This document shows positions 9,601-28,219 of a stretch of 64,000 nt of DNA, piece by piece. The stretch comes from Polytrichum commune. Its lineage: Eukaryota; Streptophyta; Polytrichopsida; Polytrichales; Polytrichaceae. The translations under genes were made by a program, and so were the position numbers. The stretch covers positions 39,774,440 to 39,838,439 of the forward strand of contig OX485807.1 in assembly GCA_950295325.1 (NCBI GenBank), read 5' to 3'. The notes below the pieces were generated by a model. The model saw only the letters and a list, made by a program, of their open reading frames with translations, did not search any database and was not told the origin of the DNA. Each line of letters begins with the position of its first letter. Position 1 is the stretch's first letter.

Positions 9601-9750
9601 TCCGCTTCGTCGTCCTCTCCTCTTCGGAGTCTTGTTTGGGGTTTCCTGCACCGGGCTACTTGCATCGCAACAATCATCGCAGAAGAAGGTCGAAGCAGGA
9701 GGACATCTCGTAGTTAGTGAATGTAAGAGTGGAAATAGCAGAGGGAAGCC

Positions 9751-12700
9751 ATGACGGTGGTGAGCACGGCGAGCGGGCTGCTGGCGATGCTGCAAGAGCA
9801 GCATCCAGTGCTCAAATTGCATGCCCTAAATAACCTAAACATTCTGGTGGACAACTTCTGGCCCGAGATTTCCACCAACATCTCCGCCATCGAGTCCTTA
9901 TACGAGGATGAGAAGTTTCAGCAACGGCAGTTAGCCGCTCTGGTAGCATCCAAGGTATTCTATTACCTCGGGGAGTTAAACGACTCGCTCACATATGCTC
10001 TAGGCGCTGGTCCTTTGTTCGATGTGTCGGAGGATTCGGAGTATGTGCAGACGTTGGTGGCGAAGTGCGTGGATGAATATATCTTGCTCAGTGTGAAAGC
10101 GGCCGAGAGCCAGGAGTCGGAGAAGGCGATCCTGGATCCGAGGTTGGTGGCGATTGTGGAGCGGATGCTGGAGAAGTGTATGCAGGATGGGAAGTTTCAG
10201 CAGGCAGTCGGGATTGCGTTGGAGTGCAGACGGCTGGATAAGCTCGAAGAAGCTATCGCCAGAAGTGAGAATGCTCCGGCTATGTTATCTTATTGCCTAC
10301 GCTTATCCCAGACGTTTGTAAGTAGACGTGAGTTTCGTCACGAGGTTTTGCGGCTTTTGGTGAAGAGCTATCAGGGCCTTCAGCAGCCTGATTATCTGAG
10401 CGTGTGCCAGTGTTTGATGTTTTTGGATGAGCCAAAGGGAGTGGCCTCTATTTTGGATAAGCTGCTTAAAGGTGACAAGAATGATGCGTTGCTGGCTTAC
10501 CAAGTAGCTTTCGACTTGTTTGAGAATGAGTATCAGAAATTTCTATTGAATGTTAGGGATCTGTTGCCTGAGCCGGCCAGTGTACCAACCATCACCGACA
10601 TGGCTGTTCCAAATGGTGGGCGAAGTGAAAATGGCATCAGTGCCATGACTGGTGGTGCTGGGCCTACAGCTATGGATACAGACGTCGTGGAAGAAGTTGC
10701 AGCAAACCCCGCAGAGGAGGTCGAGACAGAAACAGCCATAGCACCCATAGCTGGTGGAGGACCACCTGCACCGGAGAGAACACCATATGCTGAAAGGCTT
10801 TTGAAGTTGAAGGGGATTTTGTCTGGGGAGACACCCATCAGCCTGACTTTGCAGTTCCTGTACAGCCACAATAGGTCAGACCTTCTGATATTGAAAACCA
10901 TTAAACAATCTGTAGAGATGAGGAACAGTGTTTGTCACAGTGCAACCATATACTCTAATGCCCTCATGCATGCGGGTACCACAGTGGACACTTTCTTGAG
11001 AGAGAATTTGGATTGGCTAAAGAGAGCTACCAATTGGGCAAAGTTTAGCGCCACAGCAGGATTAGGAGTGATACATCGGGGTCATCATCAACAAGGAAGA
11101 TCGCTAATGGCTCCCTACTTACCCCAAAATGGAGGAACCGGTGGGGGCAGTCCGTATTCCGAGGGAGGCGCTTTATATGCACTAGGGTTAATTCATGCCA
11201 ACCATGGTGAGGGCATTAAGCAGTTCCTGTTGGAAAGTCTAAGAAATACCAGCAACGAAGTAATTCAACACGGGGCTTGCTTAGGGTTAGGTTTAGCTGC
11301 GTTGGGAACGGCAGATGAGGAAATCTATGACGATGTCAAGCATGTTCTGTACACCGAGAGTGCTGTAGCTGGTGAGGCAGCTGGTATTGCCATGGGGTTG
11401 TTGATGGTTGGGACTGCAAGTGAAAAGGCAACAGAAATGTTGTCTTATGCCCATGATACCCAGCATGAGAAGACTATTCGTGGTTTGGCTCTAGGAATTG
11501 CATTGGTTGTGTATGGTCGGGAGGAGGAAGCAGATACTCTAATTGAACAGATGACAAGAGACCAGGATCCCATCTTGCGATATGGAGGTATGTATGCCTT
11601 GGCTATGGCATATCGTGGAACTGCTAACAACAGTGCTATCCGGCGCCTGTTGCATTTTGCAGTTTCTGATGTGAGTGATGATGTGAGGAGGACTGCGGTG
11701 TTGGCTTTAGGGTTTGTTCTTTGCTCCGAACCAGAACAGACTCCCCGGATCGTCTCTCTGCTCTCAGAGTCATACAACGCGCATGTGAGATACGGAGCTG
11801 CGATGGCTGTCGGAATCTCTTGTGCAGGTTCAGGTTCAAGTGAAGCCATCTCTTTGCTGGAGCCCCTTACATCTGACGCAGTAGATTTCGTGCGGCAAGG
11901 GGCCCTCATAGCTATGGCCATGGTTCTCCTGCAAACTACAGAAGCCCGAGAACCTCGTGTGGCCAGCTTCAGGAGGCAGCTCGAGAAGATTATCAATGAC
12001 AAGCATGAGGAGACAATGAGCAAGATGGGAGCTATTCTTGCGCAGGGAATCCTAGATGCAGGGGGTCGCAATGTTGCAATCATGCTGCAGTCACGAACAG
12101 GACATGACCGAGTAACAGCAGTTGTAGGCATGGCTGTCTTCAGCCAGTTCTGGTATTGGTACCCCCTCATCTATTTTATCAGTCTGTCCTTTGCCCCAAC
12201 AGCGTTCATAGGCCTAAATGAAGAGTTGAGGATGCCTAAGTTTGATTTTATGTCAGAAACCAAACCCTCAATGTTTGGCTATCCCCCATCTGTGGCCCCA
12301 CCTGCCACTACTTCAGCTGTGAAACTACCAACTGCTGTTTTGTCCACATCAAATCGGGCCAAAGTTAGAGGTGCAAAGAAAGAGGCTGAAGCAGCTAAGG
12401 CAGGAAAGGGAGGTGGCCAGGAGGCTAGTGCAGGTGTGTCTGAAGGCTCAAGTGCTGGTGCTGAAGGACCAGTGGATACTGATAAGGAGTCGACTTCCAG
12501 TACCAAATTTGACACTGCAATGGATGTAGATGGAGGTGCAGAGAAGAAGGCGGCTGTTGCAGAGCCTCTATCAGAAGTGCTCCACAACCCTGCACGTGTG
12601 GTGCCAGCACAAGAAAAGTTCATTAAGTTCCGGGAAGACTCAAGATATGCTCCTTTGAAGTTGAAGCGAGCTCCTTCTGGCTTTGTGATGCTGAGAGATT

Positions 12701-12864
12701 TGAACCCTTCAGAACCAGTGGAGCTTGTTTCAACGGATACCCCTGTGGCTGCGGGAACTGCCGGTGCAGCAGCTCCAGCTCCTGCAAATCCTGCAGCCAT
12801 GGCTGTCGAAGATAATGAACCTCCTCCACCTGAACCATTTGAATATGTGCCTTCCAGAACATGA
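9751..12864 (+). CDS. RPN2: 26S proteasome regulatory subunit RPN2 (PSMD1), intronless
   Basis: A single uninterrupted 1,037-residue frame matches RPN2, the largest scaffold subunit of the 19S base, which contacts RPN1, RPN10, RPN13 and incoming substrates in cytosol and nucleus. The N-terminal helical region begins [18 protein letters not shown]. Proteasome/cyclosome repeats run from about residue 430 to 790, with repeated [47 protein letters not shown] and [13 protein letters not shown] Lys/Ala/Glu low-complexity insert follows (about 866-935), then the conserved C-terminal domain. Length is close to the roughly 1,000 residues usual in plants. All conserved blocks are present and there is no stop or frameshift, so it looks functional. 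The absence of introns is notable because the flowering-plant genes I know are many-exon. An overlapping upstream frame (9533-9754) would matter only if transcription starts before 9533. Confidence 0.95.
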
Positions 12865-14790: not shown

Positions 14791-15760
14791 GATGTCCTCC
14801 AAGCCTCTGAACCCTAAGCTAATGCGTTCCGTCTTCCTCAGACCATTTTGTGGAGGATTTCTCACAATTCTCACTTTTTTCTATATGCGGAGCATCGTCA
14901 TTTCACACGTCGATTATGTTCCTTGATGTATTCTCTCCATTGCACTCCAGCATGTGCAACTGACAAAATGGCGGCCACTAGATGTGAGGCCCGAGCTTCT
15001 AATTAATCCGCATATATTTTTGGTGAGAGTGATGTAGCTTGTTAGGGTTTCCTCTGGCTGCTGCGGAAGATTTTTTGAGGAGGACTAGGTAGCCGTGTTT
15101 CTCTCGCACTCTATATGTTGTTGGTTCCTGAAGAAGTCGTGTTTAGTTTGTGCATTGTGTGCAAGTGTAAATTATGAAGAGCTTGAAGTATGGCAGGCCA
15201 TCAGTCTGAAACAAAATTTGAGTTTCCTAATTTCATCATAAGGAAAGGAAGGTTTGGTCTTTACTCGTGCTCAGGGTTTCAGGATACCCTCCCTATCGAA
15301 TCATAGGTTTTCGAGATCTCATCTCTTTTATTCAGTTAAACAAATGATTTCCTGTGTTGACAGCTACGAGTATGTCGCCGAGACCTAATGCTGCCGATCT
15401 GGTCACTATCCGTTACAGGAATATCAGATTTCTGAATTACTTTTAAGCAGACATTGATGGTGATACTCTGGAAAGTACGATGGAGGAGCGTCGAGTTGAG
15501 GAAGAGATTAATGCATACAGTATCACCTTCCAGAGAAGGTACATTTTTAAGTTGCTGCGAGTTCTCTTTGAGGTTCTAAGCAAGGTTGAAAGAGGGAGAG
15601 TGTCTTAACAAAAAAGTAAGGGGACTAATGTGGAGACGACTGACTTGTCGTATAACGCGGAACCGTGTATGAGAAGTTCAAAGCCAGACAACAAGAATTT
15701 TTGAAAGTCGCCTACCTATTGAGGATTTTAAAGCGGTCGTTTTGATTAATTTTCATACAG
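14791..15760 (+). other. Leader and possible unresolved 5' exons of the PPR gene
   Basis: Composition is GC-richer than the flanks. There is a good donor (gtatgt at 15369) and an acceptor before about 15470. The following stretch to about 15580 reads openly as DGDTLESTMEERRVEEEIN, but I could not join it in phase to the next exon. The frame of the next exon is open from 15673. The start codon of the PPR protein is therefore not located. Confidence 0.35.
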
Positions 15761-18700
15761 ATCACTTGGAGACCACTGAACGACTTTGGCTGAAGTTTTT
15801 TGCTGATCCTTCTCAATGGTGGCACAACAAGAGTGGTAAGGTAAATTGGTTTACCGGTGATGAGGAAGGGCTGTGAAACGGTACCTGAATCTGCAGGAGA
15901 GATTTGTGAATGCATTCATTTTTCAATTAAATAGGAATTGGTGTTTGATAATTTCAGGGCTGTCATTGTTGTAACTCGTATATTCTATAGTTTCTGGATT
16001 ATTTATTAATGTCGTATGAGTTGAGGTAGGAGTTATGAACATAATTGGAGGTTCAAGTATCAGTGGTTGTTAATTCTGCAGGTAAATCCAACATCGCAGA
16101 CTTCAGGCACAGGCTTACAAAGGAGGTTCTTTGGATCGGTAGCGCGTCCAGGCCACCATGGGTGAAGTTGAAGATGATCGCAATGGCACGAAGCAATGCA
16201 CAAACCTATGTCGGCTCTAAAGTCCACAAGCGGTATTTCTCCTGTCGTTGATCAACTATAGACAGTATAGCGGGTTATATGTTTACAATGGAAAGAGTTG
16301 CTGACTACCACAATGGAATAGCTATCACTTGAATACCTTTACCAGTGAATGCAGTGATTTCTGTACATTGAGCTTTAGCACATTATTTCTAATTTTGCAC
16401 TTTGGATGAATCAGGGTGTTTGTTGACCGCAACACTGGGCTGACAGAGAACCCTAGCAGTGTGAATTTTGAAGGCAATGATCAATTAATTTATAGACGGC
16501 TGAGGAGGACCCTAAGCAAGGCAGAGGAAGCATTTGGTATCTTGGACAAATATGATAAATTAGGCATTCCTGTTAGCTTCCAAACTTATGTGACAGTCTT
16601 GCAAGCCATTTGCAGGATGGAGGATCTGGAAGTAGGCAGGCGAGTTCATAAGCATATATTACAAAATAGACTGGGTGAGAATATCTACCTCGTAAACAAT
16701 CTTCTAAGAATGTATATAAACTGTGGAAGCATTATGGATGCACGGGAATTGTTCGACAAAGTTCGTGAGAAAGATGTAGTCACCTGGACGACGATGATTG
16801 GAGGTTTTGCACAACATGGTCATGGTGAGGAGGCCTTCAAAGCATTTCACCAAATGCAACAAGAAGGCTTAAAGCCAAACAAGGTGACTTACATGAGCAT
16901 TTTGAACATCTGTTTGAGCCCAGCTGGTTTGGAATGGGGCAAGGAAATACATGCCCATATTATTGCGGCTGGGCTTGAATCTGATGTGCGAGTTGGGACG
17001 GAAATTGTCAAGATGTATGTTAAGGGTGGAAGCATCAGGGACGCCAGGCAAGCTTTCAACAAAATACTTGATCGAGATGTATTTGTGAGTACCGTGATGA
17101 TTGGGGCTTACACACAAAGTGGTAACATTGATGACGCGTTTGAAGTTTTTCTCCAGATGCAGAGAGAAGGTCTGGAGCCAAATAAGATTACATACTTGAG
17201 CATTTTGAATTCGTCTGCCGACTCTATTGGAGGCATGGAATGGGTAAAGGAAGTGCACGCTCAAGCCCTCAAATCTGGACTCGATTCTGATGTGCGTGTT
17301 GCGAATGCACTCATCAACACTTATGCAAGGAGTGGGAACCTCGAGGATGCATGTCTTGTTTTTGAGAAAATGGGTGAACGGGATATCATTTCGTGGAATG
17401 TGATGATTGCAGCATACGCCAGCAGCGGTCATGGTAAAAATGCATTTGAGGTCTTCTCCCGGATGCTGCAAGGAGGATTCGACCCTGATGTAATTACATT
17501 CCTAAACATCCTGAATCCTTGTGCAAGCCAAGGAGCCTTAGAATGGGTGAAAGAGGTCCACGTGCAAGCATTGGTATCTGGACTCAATTCTGATGTGCGT
17601 GTGATGACTGCACTTGTCAAGATGTACGCAAAATGTGGGAGCATCAGGGATGCCAGGCAAGTATTTGACAACATGGTTTCTCGAAATATTGTGACATGGA
17701 ATGTGATGATTGGAGCCTACTCTGAGAGTGGCCATGGTGACAAAGCATTCGAAGCCTTTCTTCATATGCAGGAAAAAGAAGGGCTAGAGCCAAATGCCGT
17801 CACCTACTTGAGTATCCTTAACCCGTGTGCCAGCCTAGGAGCTTTGAAATGGGTCAAGGAGGTCCATACGCAAGCTCTCAAAGGCGAGGTTGGCTCGGAC
17901 GTGCGTGTGAATAATGCACTCATCAACATGTATGCAAAGAGTGGAAGCATTGACGACGCGCGTCATGTTTTCAATAACATGGTTGAACGTGACGTCATTA
18001 CATGGAATGTGATGATTGGAGCACTTGCACAACATGGGTGTGGCCAAGAGGCCCTCGATGTTTTCAATAAGATGAAGATTGAAGGGGTTAAACCCAACGA
18101 GGTTACGTTTGTAGGAGTTCTCTCGGCTTGCAGCCACGCAGGTCTAGTGGACGAGTGTCGCCACCATTTTTCCTCCTTGATACAAGATCAACATGGCATT
18201 AAACCCACGATCAAGCATTACAGTTGCATGGTAGATGTTCTCGGCCGTGCGGGACGCTTGTCTGAAGCTCAGGAAGTTATCAAGAACATGCCATTTAAAG
18301 CAGACACTAGGGTTTGGGGAGCCTTGCTTAGTGCTTGTCGAGTGCATGGGAACGTTGCACTAGCTGAACATGCGGCTGAACATTGTCTCAAGTTGAACCC
18401 ACATGACCCTGGGGTTTACGTGCTTCTTTCAAATGTCTATGCCGCAGCTGGCATGCCGAATAGCGCGGAGTTGGTGCGGAGAACGATGAAGGAAAAAGGT
18501 GTGACAAAAGAGCCGGGATGCAGCTGGGTCGAGGTTAACGACAAGGTCCATTCTTTCATTGTAGAAGATAGATCGCACCCTCAAGCGGATGAAATTTACT
18601 GTGAGCTTGCGAAATTGGTCGAGAGTATAAAGAGGGCAGGGTATGTTCCTGATACACGATTTGTAACCCATAATGTGGTTGATGAGCGCCAAAGGGAACA

Positions 18701-18923
18701 ATCGGTTTTGTCTCACAGTGAGAAGCTGGCCATCACGTACGGACTCATGAGAACGCCAGCAGGTACACCAATCCGGATTTTTAAAAACCTTCGTGTCTGT
18801 TCTGACTGCCATACAGCATCTAAATTCATATCCAAGGTCTCCAAACGAGAGATTGTTGCGAGGGACGCTAATCGCTTCCACCACTTCAAGGATGGTGTGT
18901 GTTCTTGTGGGGACTACTGGTAA
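15761..18923 (+). CDS. PPR-DYW protein with N-terminal OSB-type PDF motif (5' end unresolved)
   Basis: Three supported exons: up to 15835 (acceptor probably at 15760), 16082-16232 and 16415-18923, with junction phases 1 and 2 matching. The first two encode LWLKFFADPSQWWHNKSGK, then ADFRHR, EVLWI and PPWVK. This is the pattern of the PDF motif of plant organellar single-stranded DNA-binding (OSB) proteins, with Ala replacing the naming Pro. The third encodes a PLS-type PPR tract, then E/E+ and a full DYW cytidine deaminase domain: PGCSW, HSEKLAI, CSDCH and the terminal CSCGDYW, so zinc and catalytic residues are intact. DYW proteins edit C to U at specific organelle transcript sites, with PPRs reading RNA. 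No transit peptide can be judged because the N-terminus is missing. Adjacent internal repeats are very alike, suggesting recent duplication within the tract. The PPR-DYW identity is certain; the fusion rests on splice prediction. Confidence 0.85.
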
Positions 18924-23790: not shown

Positions 23791-25451
23791 GCCGCGTCGC
23801 AGTAGCCGCACCCAGTCGTAGCAGTCCGACATTCTTGAGACGTCGTAGCAGTCGCAACAGCTCGAGGAAGGGAGCTGGAGGTAACCCAAGGGAGGCTACA
23901 AGGTTAGAGGCAGCTATGACAAATCACGAAGTTGTTGGAGCCACCAGAAGGTAAGTTACTAGAATACCCGAACAAGCCCCTTCATTTAAAAAATTTAGTT
24001 GCACATAGACACACACAAAGTAACATTAATTTAGGCACGTAGAATTATTAGTTGTTGTTAGGTAGGAAGAAAAATGAAGGTTGCACATGCAACCAACCTT
24101 GTTCTTATCCTTTGGCTCGTGTTAGCCATACCATATTGGAGAAATTCTCACCGTGTCAACTCTCACAACCCATGGGAATGTCATACACATTATTGTTTTA
24201 CTACCATAGATGCACATAAAAAAGAAATATCAAACCAAATAGAATGGTATTATACAAATATTAGCAAACCCAATGTATGCATAAAAAACAACTTCTTCCT
24301 AATAGCACCCTCCCTACAAAGCCCACTTATTCATAAGTGGAAAGGGGATTGGTCTAGGAGCAAAAGAAAAATACCAAAAACACACAATAATAAAATGTAC
24401 TACTTTTGCAGAATGGCCTACTTCCGCAGTCTTGAAAAGTCATTGGATGGGGTAAAGACATGGAAGTAACACAAACTTAAAAACGAACATCTAGAAATGC
24501 ATGTCTAACCATAGTAGACAAAACCAAAAACAAACCTAGCACCCAAGGGAAAACTTTCCCGCTATGGCTTGGATTCAAAGCAATGAATGATTTGAATGTA
24601 AGCAAAGGCCTTTCCAAAGAAAGCCACAAAAGTGTTAGTGAACTTGTCAAAATAGGAATGTATAAAAATGAAGCATTAGAATGTCAAGATAGTATTCCGT
24701 CATATCCGTATGTACCACAAGAGATATGGCCCAACAAAAATAGCCTAGGGGAACAAATTTTCATCACACTCAAATTTCATTAGAAATAGAAATTTGTGAT
24801 GGCTTTGCAATGGATTATCATGTGGTTTATTCTTCGATTTAGACGAAATGATTATACCCAAAGAAGATGCACTTGAAAACATCACCAAGAGATTGGATGT
24901 GATGAAAATCTCTCTTGGTGAAGATATTAGTGATCATATTACCATAATGTGTACACACGGAGGAAAACAATGGTAGGAGCATGCTTAAATACACCTAAAA
25001 AACATACAAGAAGATGGGGTTCTTCTCCTCCAAGGATTACGGCCATTTATTATCCGGCATTGCATAGAGGAAAAGTGTGCAAATCATACGATACTATTGC
25101 CTCAAGCGAGATGTTATCAATCAAAATCATAAGTGATAGCATAAAAAACATGATTTGGTACAATGTGTATGATGAAGTGGTCAATGAAAGGTTCAAAAGA
25201 TGACATAATTTTGAAATCACACATGTAAAAAAAAGAAAAACCATAATTTCGTATTGATTGTTGTCACTAGTCTGGAACAAACTCTAAACATCCGAAAAAA
25301 TAAAATAACCTTCGGATATGAATGCATTAATGTAACAATAGGGAAACCCACGGGTGATGACTTGGCAAAAAAGAATGCACTTATTCTTATTGCAAAAAAT
25401 TAAAACAAATTAAAACCAAAAGAGATTCTTGAAACGGAAAAAAAAATATGT

Positions 25452-25966
25452 ATGGGGGGGAAAAATATTTTTAATATTTTTAAAAAAACATACGACAAAG
25501 GCAAACTCACAAGATTATGCAATGTTCAATGTCTAAGCGCGGCAGTTTACAAGAAATTTGTTAAAAACAGTCATAAAATATGTAACAAATACGTCGAATT
25601 TGCCCCTCATCCAAAGAATTTAGATGGCATATCTAAACTCTCGGGAGATGAATTCACAATACTAGGCTTAAACGATGTGAACACAGCCTTAGCAAACATT
25701 GTAGAAGCCATGGAAAAAGTCCCATCCAATGAATTAGGGAAAAAAAACATAAATAAAATGGTGAAGAAGCGGTGGCTAACGGCACTGCAATAATACGCAA
25801 TGAGATGCAAACAATGGAAACACGTCTCACAAGCCAAGCAAAAAACTTTGCAACGTATGTAGCATACAAAGCAGCTAGGGCCCTCAATAAAGAAATGGCT
25901 ACCCTCAGACAAGCCCTTAGCAAAACAATGGTAGCTCTCGACTCCACGGATATGCTCGACAAATAA
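25452..25966 (+). pseudogene. ORF1-like fragment of the non-LTR retrotransposon
   Basis: Two frames connect through one frameshift near 25760. The first reads VEFAPHPKNLDGISKL and DVNTALANIVEAME. The second reads EEAVANGTAIIRNEMQTMET and then a Lys/Ala-rich helical stretch ending MVALDSTDMLDK, which looks like a coiled coil. It lies in the position of ORF1, whose product usually binds the element RNA. I do not recognise a named domain. Confidence 0.45.
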
Positions 25967-27039
25967 GATTCATCGAGCGACAAAGAAGACTTAATGGCGA
26001 TAAACTAAACACGGCCATCACTTCAATACCAACAACAAAACTAAAACTAAAACTAAAACTAAATAAAAGGGTATTTATAAGTACCACCATCCAAATAGAA
26101 TCATTTGTCATAATAATTTTTATTAAAAACATAAGTAAATATTTTCTCAAAGTAAATTTCACACCTCAACGTACAAATCCAAATCACGATACCTTACATA
26201 CTTCTATATACACAATCACCATGGATACACTACCAAACTCATTCCCACTTTATACAAACCAAATAAAACCCACCATACAAACATACAACAAGCAATTATA
26301 ATTAAGCATAATTACACGACACCATGCCCAAAAACATCTTCTACTACTCCGATGTGGAGATATTCACCCCAACCCATACCCAATGCCTAACCTGCTACAA
26401 AAACACCCCACCGCTCATAAAAGACAACAAACAACATACTTCTTACCTAGTACGATCAAATTTCAACCATAATATCAACATTTGGCCAAAACATTCAAAC
26501 TGCTCTTTCAAAACACACATCACCTACGTGCACAAACAACATTCTTACTTCCACACTTATACAACTACATACAACAACACAATAACCACCCCCCCCCCCC
26601 CCTCACGGATCATCTACGCAATGGTCGTAACGGTTAGCCATTCTACTGAAGTATGTAACACATATCTCCAACAACAACCAATACAAGACTGGACATCACA
26701 GCTACTAGAAAAAATGACAAAATTGCCCAACCCGCCATAACAACACATAAACACCCCGCATCCATATACACAATTTTGCAATATATACAACGACAAAATC
26801 AGCCCCCAAATACAATACATAAACAATTCTATGACTACATACACCTAAATCCCGAATCATTTAGTATCCAAAATCTGCAAGAAATATTCTCATACCTACC
26901 AAAACAACTTCTAATGCAGGCATTAAGATACAACGAACCCATAAATGAATACACACACCTTAATTCCCAAACAATCCACAACCCATCACCACCACATGGA
27001 CCAATCCTACTAACAATCCAAGAATCATATGCCATAACT

Positions 27040-28219
27040 TGGAACGCCTCCTCACTTACTTGAATCCATAATTAAAATGATGCAGTCCCGCACACAAGCC
27101 ACCACACTCCATAAAGTCAAAGCCCACACGAACATAAGTGGCAACGAACACGTAGATAAGTTAGCCAAAATGAGTTGTGAATTAGACCATAGAGATGGCA
27201 TAATAACATATGAACATGCACACCCCACACCATACTACCTCCAAAAAGATTGGTGGCACTCAATGCAAGAAACACCAGATAAGGGCCCCATCCAACACCT
27301 TGGCAAATACATCCTTAAATATGACAAAAGACATAACCTTGAAACTATAGCAACCCAAACACACCAATTACATAAATGGCTCGACAACAAAGATATCGAC
27401 AAAGCATTATCAAACGACTTTTGAAATAATCCGGTCATCACATATAAACAAAAAACATGCCTTATAAAATTCCGAACCGGACAATATATGGGACATGCTC
27501 AAAAGCAACTCTTCTTTGGAAGAGACGTATATCCATCCAATACATGCCCTATTTGCAATTCATCATAAGCAGACACATGGTTGCACGTACTCCTTGAATG
27601 CAAACAACAACACATATATGCACTAATAACAAACAGACATAACAAAGCGGTATGGGAAATACGTAAGTTTCTCATCTCAAACAAAGTGGCAAGGCACTAC
27701 ATACTTATGAATGCGGGCACATACAATGAACTACCTCAAGAAAACATAGTACCAACATGGTTACTACCATGCACATGTGGCACCCAAAGATGCCATTGCA
27801 ACGCTAGGCTCAAACCCGACATACTATGCATCTTAGGTCATCCATATAACTACCCACCACCAGAAGTACCTACACCAGAAATCACTATAAAATTCATAGA
27901 ATTCACATACTGCAATGACATGTTTACTGCTGAAACGAGTGAGAGGAAAATTACAAAATATCAACCACTCATTAATAATATCAAAGCAAGGGGATGGAAT
28001 ATAGCTCCACTCATAGTACTAGCATCAAGTGCCAGAGCTACAACTCACATCCCATCAAAGAAAGAACTAGAAACAAAGCTTAAACTCCCTACCTCACAAA
28101 TTCGGAACACATTTAAACAAATCAACCTAATCGCCATACAATACACACACCTAATATTAGTCCATAAAAGACGGATAGAAAATAGACAACCTATCACAAA
28201 CTTACAAGACCGTGTTTAA
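27040..28219 (+). pseudogene. RNase H, CCHC knuckle and restriction-like endonuclease remnant
   Basis: The segment reads PPHLLESIIKMMQSRTQATT then KVKAHTNISGNEHVDKLAK, the C-terminal RNase H motif of retroelements (His, Asn-Glu, Asp). A knuckle CPIC...WLHVLLEC follows near 27550-27600, with a stop codon inside it. The last frame (27581-28219) has CTCGTQRCHC, then KPDILCILG, IKFIEFTYCND and ERKITKY. That order fits a PD-(D/E)xK restriction-like endonuclease as in R2-type and Dualen-type elements, with ITKYQPL and RGWNIAPLIVL continuing the fold. These enzymes nick target DNA for target-primed reverse transcription. The frame is interrupted twice, so it is not functional. The endonuclease call is by motif only. 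Confidence 0.6.

Follow-up and report, generated by a model that had tools for sequence, protein, structure and literature searches.

Few complete editing factors are as simple as the DYW proteins of mosses, which are a basis of designer RNA editors. Single PLS-DYW proteins of mosses edit their own sites, in E. coli too, the last S repeat being placed opposite position −4 (PMC10482289). The gene described here resembles the Physcomitrium editing factors PpPPR_56, 65, 71, 77, 78, 79, 91, 98 and others in its PLS tract, E1/E2 motifs and terminal DYW domain, and is set apart from them, as far as the table notes of PMC9459714 show, by an N-terminal PDF motif. The extra domains recorded in these table notes are RRM, LAGLIDADG, SMR, NYN, CBS and SAP, with PDF not among them; introns are common in moss PPR genes according to the same paper.

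The PDF motif is shared with the OSB proteins (organellar single-stranded DNA-binding; AtOSB1-4). The PDF of AtOSB1 suffices for ssDNA binding (PMC6963530), and Arabidopsis OSB1 and OSB2 favour ssDNA over dsDNA or RNA (PMC4166229). The intron inside the PDF lies at the same place as in this genome's own OSB gene. However, in contrast to an OSB protein, the predicted product shows no SSB-like OB fold that we could find, carries its PDF at the N-terminal rather than the C-terminal end and has it joined to a PPR-DYW portion. A general nucleic-acid-binding module in front of a PPR tract is also known from the RRM-PPR proteins (maize PPR4, moss PpPPR_3 and 76), which differ in having a P-class tract, a splicing function, an RRM instead of a PDF and no DYW domain (PMC9459714). 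No PDF-PPR fusion appears in the titles and abstract openings of the papers listed by the literature searches, and in the paper that mentions the PDF motif, OSB and PPR together, the PPR passages concern RNA polymerase. Taking into account that no Pfam model matches the PDF of these proteins, fusions of this kind could be present without annotation in the gene sets of other mosses.

Exon layout and reading frame

The gene is read on the forward strand of the window, that is, the whole stretch of 64,000 nucleotides analysed, which lies on contig C5, with the following features.

15457–15538, +: candidate first exon MVILWKVRWRSVELRKRLMHTVSPSRE, basic and presequence-like by eye, with a putative phase-1 donor AAG^GTACAT at 15539
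15761–15835, +: exon with the first half of the PDF (ERLWLKFFADPSQWWHNKSG), acceptor CATACAG^AT, phase 1 as in relatives
15836–16081, +: intron within the PDF, with overlapping donors GTAAGG (15836) and GTAAAT (15841)
16082–16232, +: exon with the second half of the PDF (KSNIADFRHRLTKEVLWIGSASRPPWVK) and the start of the linker, from the sequence and relatives
16097–16098, +: position of a missing base, from a codon alignment; several relatives have CCT or CCC here, coding for the Pro of PDF
16233–16414, +: intron between the PDF exon and the PPR exon, phase 2 as in four relatives
16415–18923, +: long exon with linker, PLS-type PPR tract, E, E+, DYW and stop TAA, from Pfam
about 16560–18340, +: PLS-type PPR tract, borders by hand
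18345–18533, +: E motif, from Pfam
18546–18620, +: E+ motif, from Pfam
18639–18920, +: DYW deaminase, from Pfam

The joined translation, begun at 15764, stays open across 15761–15835, 16082–16232 and 16415–18923 to the stop after ...CSCGDYW, and its product reads in the order ERLWLKFFADPSQWWHNKSG / KSNIADFRHRLTKEVLWIGSASRPPWVKLKM... / VFVDRN...PPR...DYW. The first-pass annotation had placed a PDF signature in two exons 5′ of the PPR exon and had let the junction from 16232 to 16415 continue without a stop in matching phases; both claims stand, the first also because a PDF query from the OSB gene matches both halves. All junctions are fits to the sequence and not observed splices, and the donor at 16233 scores weakly (0.63, on a rough donor score whose weights come from general knowledge).

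The same annotation had the two PDF halves rejoin perfectly. The frame does so, but a one-base loss and a shifted donor had been overlooked. In the codon alignment, AAA TCA CCT GAC TTC of the relative L009 corresponds to ACA TCG CA- GAC TTC at the locus, and the Pro of 'PDF' has gone (IADF). With one base absent at about 16097–16098, the homologous donor at 15841 leads to a frameshift, and the protein modelled from it stops after 80 residues. Only donor 15836, which lies 5 nt upstream of the ancestral one, regains the frame, in a product shortened by two codons and lacking the P of PDF; ERLW, FFADPSQWW, ADFRHR, LWI and PPWVK are kept after the slip. The PDF would have survived the one-base loss by way of this shifted donor. 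On the rough scale 15841 reaches 5.64 and 15836 reaches 4.43, and since the ancestral donor scores slightly above the shifted one, a mixture of products is possible.

The start that had been set at 15673 fails, as the stretch between the stop at 15670–15672 and the PDF has no in-frame ATG; the frame as drawn lacks a start and requires an upstream exon. The long exon points to the same need: its first 67 residues include no Met (the first ATG is codon 68), and by eye nothing in it is presequence-like, so that it depends on upstream exons. The candidate exon at 15457–15538 has a second in-frame ATG at 15511, and its donor has the second-best score among the combinations of ATG and phase-1 donor listed. 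The best-scored donor (4.92) belongs to an 8-residue exon 1.1 kb upstream, which was passed over on account of its product; a first exon MWRRLTCRITRN at 15628–15664 was rejected with a phase-1 donor score of −4.71. The relatives have in common an upstream stretch with a phase-1-compatible donor at its end; this stretch is absent from the locus, and the candidate exon is not homologous to it. To take that exon as the true first one is a guess; with it, and with the first PDF exon (exon a) entered at 15761, arithmetic from the coordinates gives a predicted protein of 938 residues.

By its predicted domains, the long exon is a complete and intact PLS-PPR-E-E+-DYW. Pfam matches comprise PPR_2 (6.6e-97), E_motif (8.9e-21, 74.4 bits), Eplus_motif (7.1e-7, 29.3 bits) and DYW_deaminase (1.5e-42, 143.8 bits); the PPR_2 and PPR models cover 8 and 10 stretches, and reading by hand gives alternating P, L and S repeats. 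HSE, CSDC and the ...CGDYW end are all present in the DYW domain. The PPR code, read by hand with rules as in PMC10482289, predicts U A N G A N U U N A Y N U Y N G for positions −19 to −4 of the target.

The genome is likely that of a moss, its PsaB matching the Physcomitrium structures 8htu, 6l35/7xqp and 7ksq best (1700.6–1704.6 bits, with 1667.2 for the sequence that follows them). No plant mitochondrial contig was recognised among the PF00361 matches of the genome. The plastid contig, C8, exceeds one turn, two PF00361 matches repeating 126,254 bases apart. Contig C9 (67 kb, L037–L043) was rejected as plant mtDNA, for its nad5 pieces among LAGLIDADG-type ORFs look fungal; judged by L037, it resembles the mitochondrial genome of a fungus, perhaps one associated with the plant.

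The PDF motif and the OSB gene of the genome

When the PDF of the genome's OSB gene, L008, was used as query in a search of the 408-Mb, 64-contig genome, both halves of the PDF at the locus were matched (E values of 0.018 and 0.055), in the correct order and about 0.25 kb apart; this query is not derived from the locus. The reverse search, with the locus as query, returned L008 at E values of 0.0125 and 0.035. A half-motif profile gives the first half at the fused locus 51.5 bits, the profile including that sequence itself. General models are silent on the motif: Pfam finds in the N-terminus of the predicted protein just DUF6231 (E values of 0.048 and 0.022, far below cut-off), Pfam and NCBIfam find no match in the PDF of L009, and a PDB sequence search with the PDF part gave none.

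L008 has SSB exons at C5:4.066–4.067M and its PDF at C5:4.064M. Two exons just upstream of that PDF match the SSB family, with 76.5 bits when joined at guessed borders, and no PPR tract follows the PDF in 1.5 kb translated. Judged by its parts, an SSB fold and a PDF, L008 is a genuine OSB gene and the one recognisable in the genome. A genome search with PF00436 gave three matches, of which two are at L008 and the third at C2:50.76M, near which no PDF match is found among the matches listed. None of the three falls at the fused locus, whose N-terminus shows no SSB match.

The PDF intron of L008 is at the identical place and phase as in the PDF-PPR relatives. In the OSB gene and eight other copies it follows the K codon of ..NR.DK|RNPKSPDF.., and it is phase 0 in these nine of the ten copies aligned; the locus described here is the tenth and departs from the rule.

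PDF-bearing loci, constraint and descent

The succession of half PDF, intron, half PDF, intron and PPR-DYW exon recurs in four more DYW genes, L007, L009, L017 and L019, located at four other chromosomal places. In all five genes exon a is entered in phase 1 and the junction from the second PDF exon (exon b) to the PPR exon fits phase 2. A chance join of PDF and PPR-DYW is rejected, since the same arrangement recurs across a gene family. At 16 DYW loci, comprising L025, the fragment L026 and 14 with full-length DYW matches, the sequence preceding the longest open frame was scanned with PDF half profiles over at most 2.5 kb. Five of them, namely the locus described here and its four relatives, have both halves, and two have the first half alone, L018 (45.0 bits) and L014 (17.1 bits). 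The remaining nine show no half above the maximum of 20 shuffled sets (8.5 bits for the first half, 9.9 bits for the second), L015 (9.9) and L025 (8.3) being at shuffle level. The scores of the sequences that built the profiles are not independent, these being the locus, L007, L009, L017, L018 and L019 for the first half and the locus, L007, L009 and L017 for the second; the first half of L014 and the second half of L019 lie outside the profiles that matched them.

Other PDF-bearing places vary in completeness. In L028 and L029, decayed-looking copies, DYW fragments follow the PDF halves at a distance of about 3.5 kb. At C5:42.007–42.014M (L013 and L027), PDF exons are followed by a PLS-type PPR exon of 546 codons, and the genome DYW search has no match near L013; by its shape it recalls PpPPR_69/SEL1 and is perhaps a moss SEL1/PDM1-like gene. 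At L030, L031, L032, L033, L034 and L035 there are dispersed PDF sequences, either single halves or complete motifs, and several of them are interrupted by stops or changes of frame; no PPR lies near L030 or L031 in 1.7 kb translated, and the last four are known from PDF matches alone, L032 resembling the OSB copy. Two PDF copies have no internal intron, L011 (oriented 2365–2511, stops inside) and L012 (oriented 1829–1951, stops around). Both are exact at the predicted PDF splice junction and are possible retrocopies; a 301-base stretch of L012, taken for copy count, is single-copy. As retrocopies of a fusion transcript they were rejected, nothing PPR-like aligning convincingly beyond the PDF among the alignments listed, and at most they support splicing within the PDF.

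Comparison of the locus with L007, L009 and L017 gives pN values of 0.27, 0.27 and 0.32 for the PDF (pN/pS 0.39–0.53), 0.57, 0.52 and 0.57 for the linker (pN/pS 0.66–0.83) and 0.26, 0.26 and 0.25 for PPR-DYW (pN/pS 0.34–0.36). Among themselves, the three relatives give pN of 0.13–0.15, 0.20–0.25 and 0.14–0.17 for the same parts, with pN/pS of 0.31–0.52 for the PDF and 0.52–0.81 for the linker; the smallest contrast between these two is that of L009 and L017 (0.40 vs 0.52). The PDF ratios are counts on 52–54 codons without errors, and pS in pairs with the locus is near saturation. By these counts, protein change in the PDF is about as slow as in PPR-DYW, and the linker is 1.3 to 2 times faster. 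Against L019 the locus gives pN/pS of 0.53 for the PDF, 0.78 for the linker and 0.37 for PPR-DYW. The PDF of L019 looks to be under relaxed constraint, with pN/pS of 0.68–0.87 against L007, L009 and L017. With L018 and L014 showing the first half alone and L019 relaxed, the PDF would be dispensable for some family members, and the nine DYW loci where neither half was found imply that editing as such does not require it.

In a tree of 13 sequences (last 640 residues), the five fused genes and L018 group with a bootstrap of 98, and the locus and its four relatives with 78; a C-terminal tree of 15 sequences gives 68 and 81 for the same groups. Both trees are unrooted and the groupings were read from the newick; L014, with its PDF remnant, falls outside the fused group in an unresolved position. 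The simplest account would be one join at or before the branch of L018 followed by losses, an older gain being possible.

Predicted role and competing explanations

A PDF-PPR-DYW fusion at the locus is well supported by the sequence, and it is apparently a real, maintained gene design and not an accident. Shared intron positions, phases and PDF residues in the family support an OSB-type PDF as the N-terminal module of a PPR-DYW protein. The reading we favour, and consider reasonably probable, is one gene for an organelle-targeted PDF-PLS-E-DYW protein of ~940 residues that would act as a site-specific C-to-U editor. The two PDF exons of an OSB gene would have joined upstream of a PLS-PPR-DYW exon, and the resulting gene would then have been duplicated into a small family. 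The PPR tract and DYW domain would perform C-to-U editing of a specific organelle transcript, and the PDF would add a single-strand contact, independent of sequence, past the 5′ end of the PPR footprint. Since a PPR tract has its N-terminal end over the 5′ side of its RNA, the PDF is expected 5′ of the footprint, roughly at least 20 bases upstream of the edited C. Its partner could be either upstream RNA or ssDNA close to transcription. The ssDNA preference of OSB1 and OSB2 (PMC4166229) argues against reading it as a simple RNA clamp. We infer splicing in the plant, import into an organelle (probably the mitochondrion), specific C-to-U editing and the contact role of the PDF; that the PDF adds nucleic-acid contacts, or links organelle DNA care with editing, is plausible.

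A natural single-strand-binding module on an editor would amount to evolution's own trial of altering affinity or target range, and the fusion would bring organelle DNA maintenance and RNA editing into direct contact at gene level. A single genome holds copies that are conserved, relaxed, half-lost or decayed-looking, and comparing them can test what the module is worth.

A less likely reading, yet one to be taken seriously, sees in the PDF a passenger: the fusion would have been kept for a presequence supplied by upstream exons, and the PDF, tolerated as a linker, would be in the course of loss copy by copy. The relaxed PDF of L019, the lone first halves at L018 and L014, the one-base loss and missing Pro at the locus itself and a PPR-DYW exon without its own presequence by eye or any Met in its first 67 residues are all consistent with this. 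A tolerated linker, however, is hard to reconcile with a PDF about as slow as PPR-DYW in the locus, L007, L009 and L017, next to a true linker that is 1.3 to 2 times faster, and with the five stretches of PDF sequence that outlived the frame slip.

More speculatively, and in our view doubtful, PDF-DYW proteins could be a distinct class of moss editing factors, gained before much of the DYW diversification and repeatedly lost, in which a module from DNA maintenance holds the editor on single strands where transcription takes place, on nascent RNA or on the DNA strand displaced there, and so couples editing to the state of transcription or of the nucleoid.

That the missing base at 16097–16098 is an assembly error, the gene being an ordinary family member with a phase-0 donor, is improbable: the nine other aligned copies do fit phase 0, but the position is not a homopolymer, and the well-formed donor exactly 5 nt upstream must then restore the frame by coincidence. 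Very improbable is an OSB-like PDF remnant beside an independent PPR-DYW gene, with transcripts that start in the long exon or end at 16249–16251; the ancestral donor does lead to a stop, but neighbours, order and phases repeat at four other chromosomal places, PDF halves precede the two decayed-looking copies, and a start inside the long exon (exon c) would be codon 68, without a presequence.

Elsewhere in the window, an AT-rich-looking run of short ORFs at 25404–28219 (+), one of which has an RNase H match below the curated cut-off (E value of 1.7e-4, 22.2 bits), is perhaps a decayed non-LTR element. Positions 9739–12864 (+) hold a single open frame of 1041 codons for the proteasome subunit RPN2.
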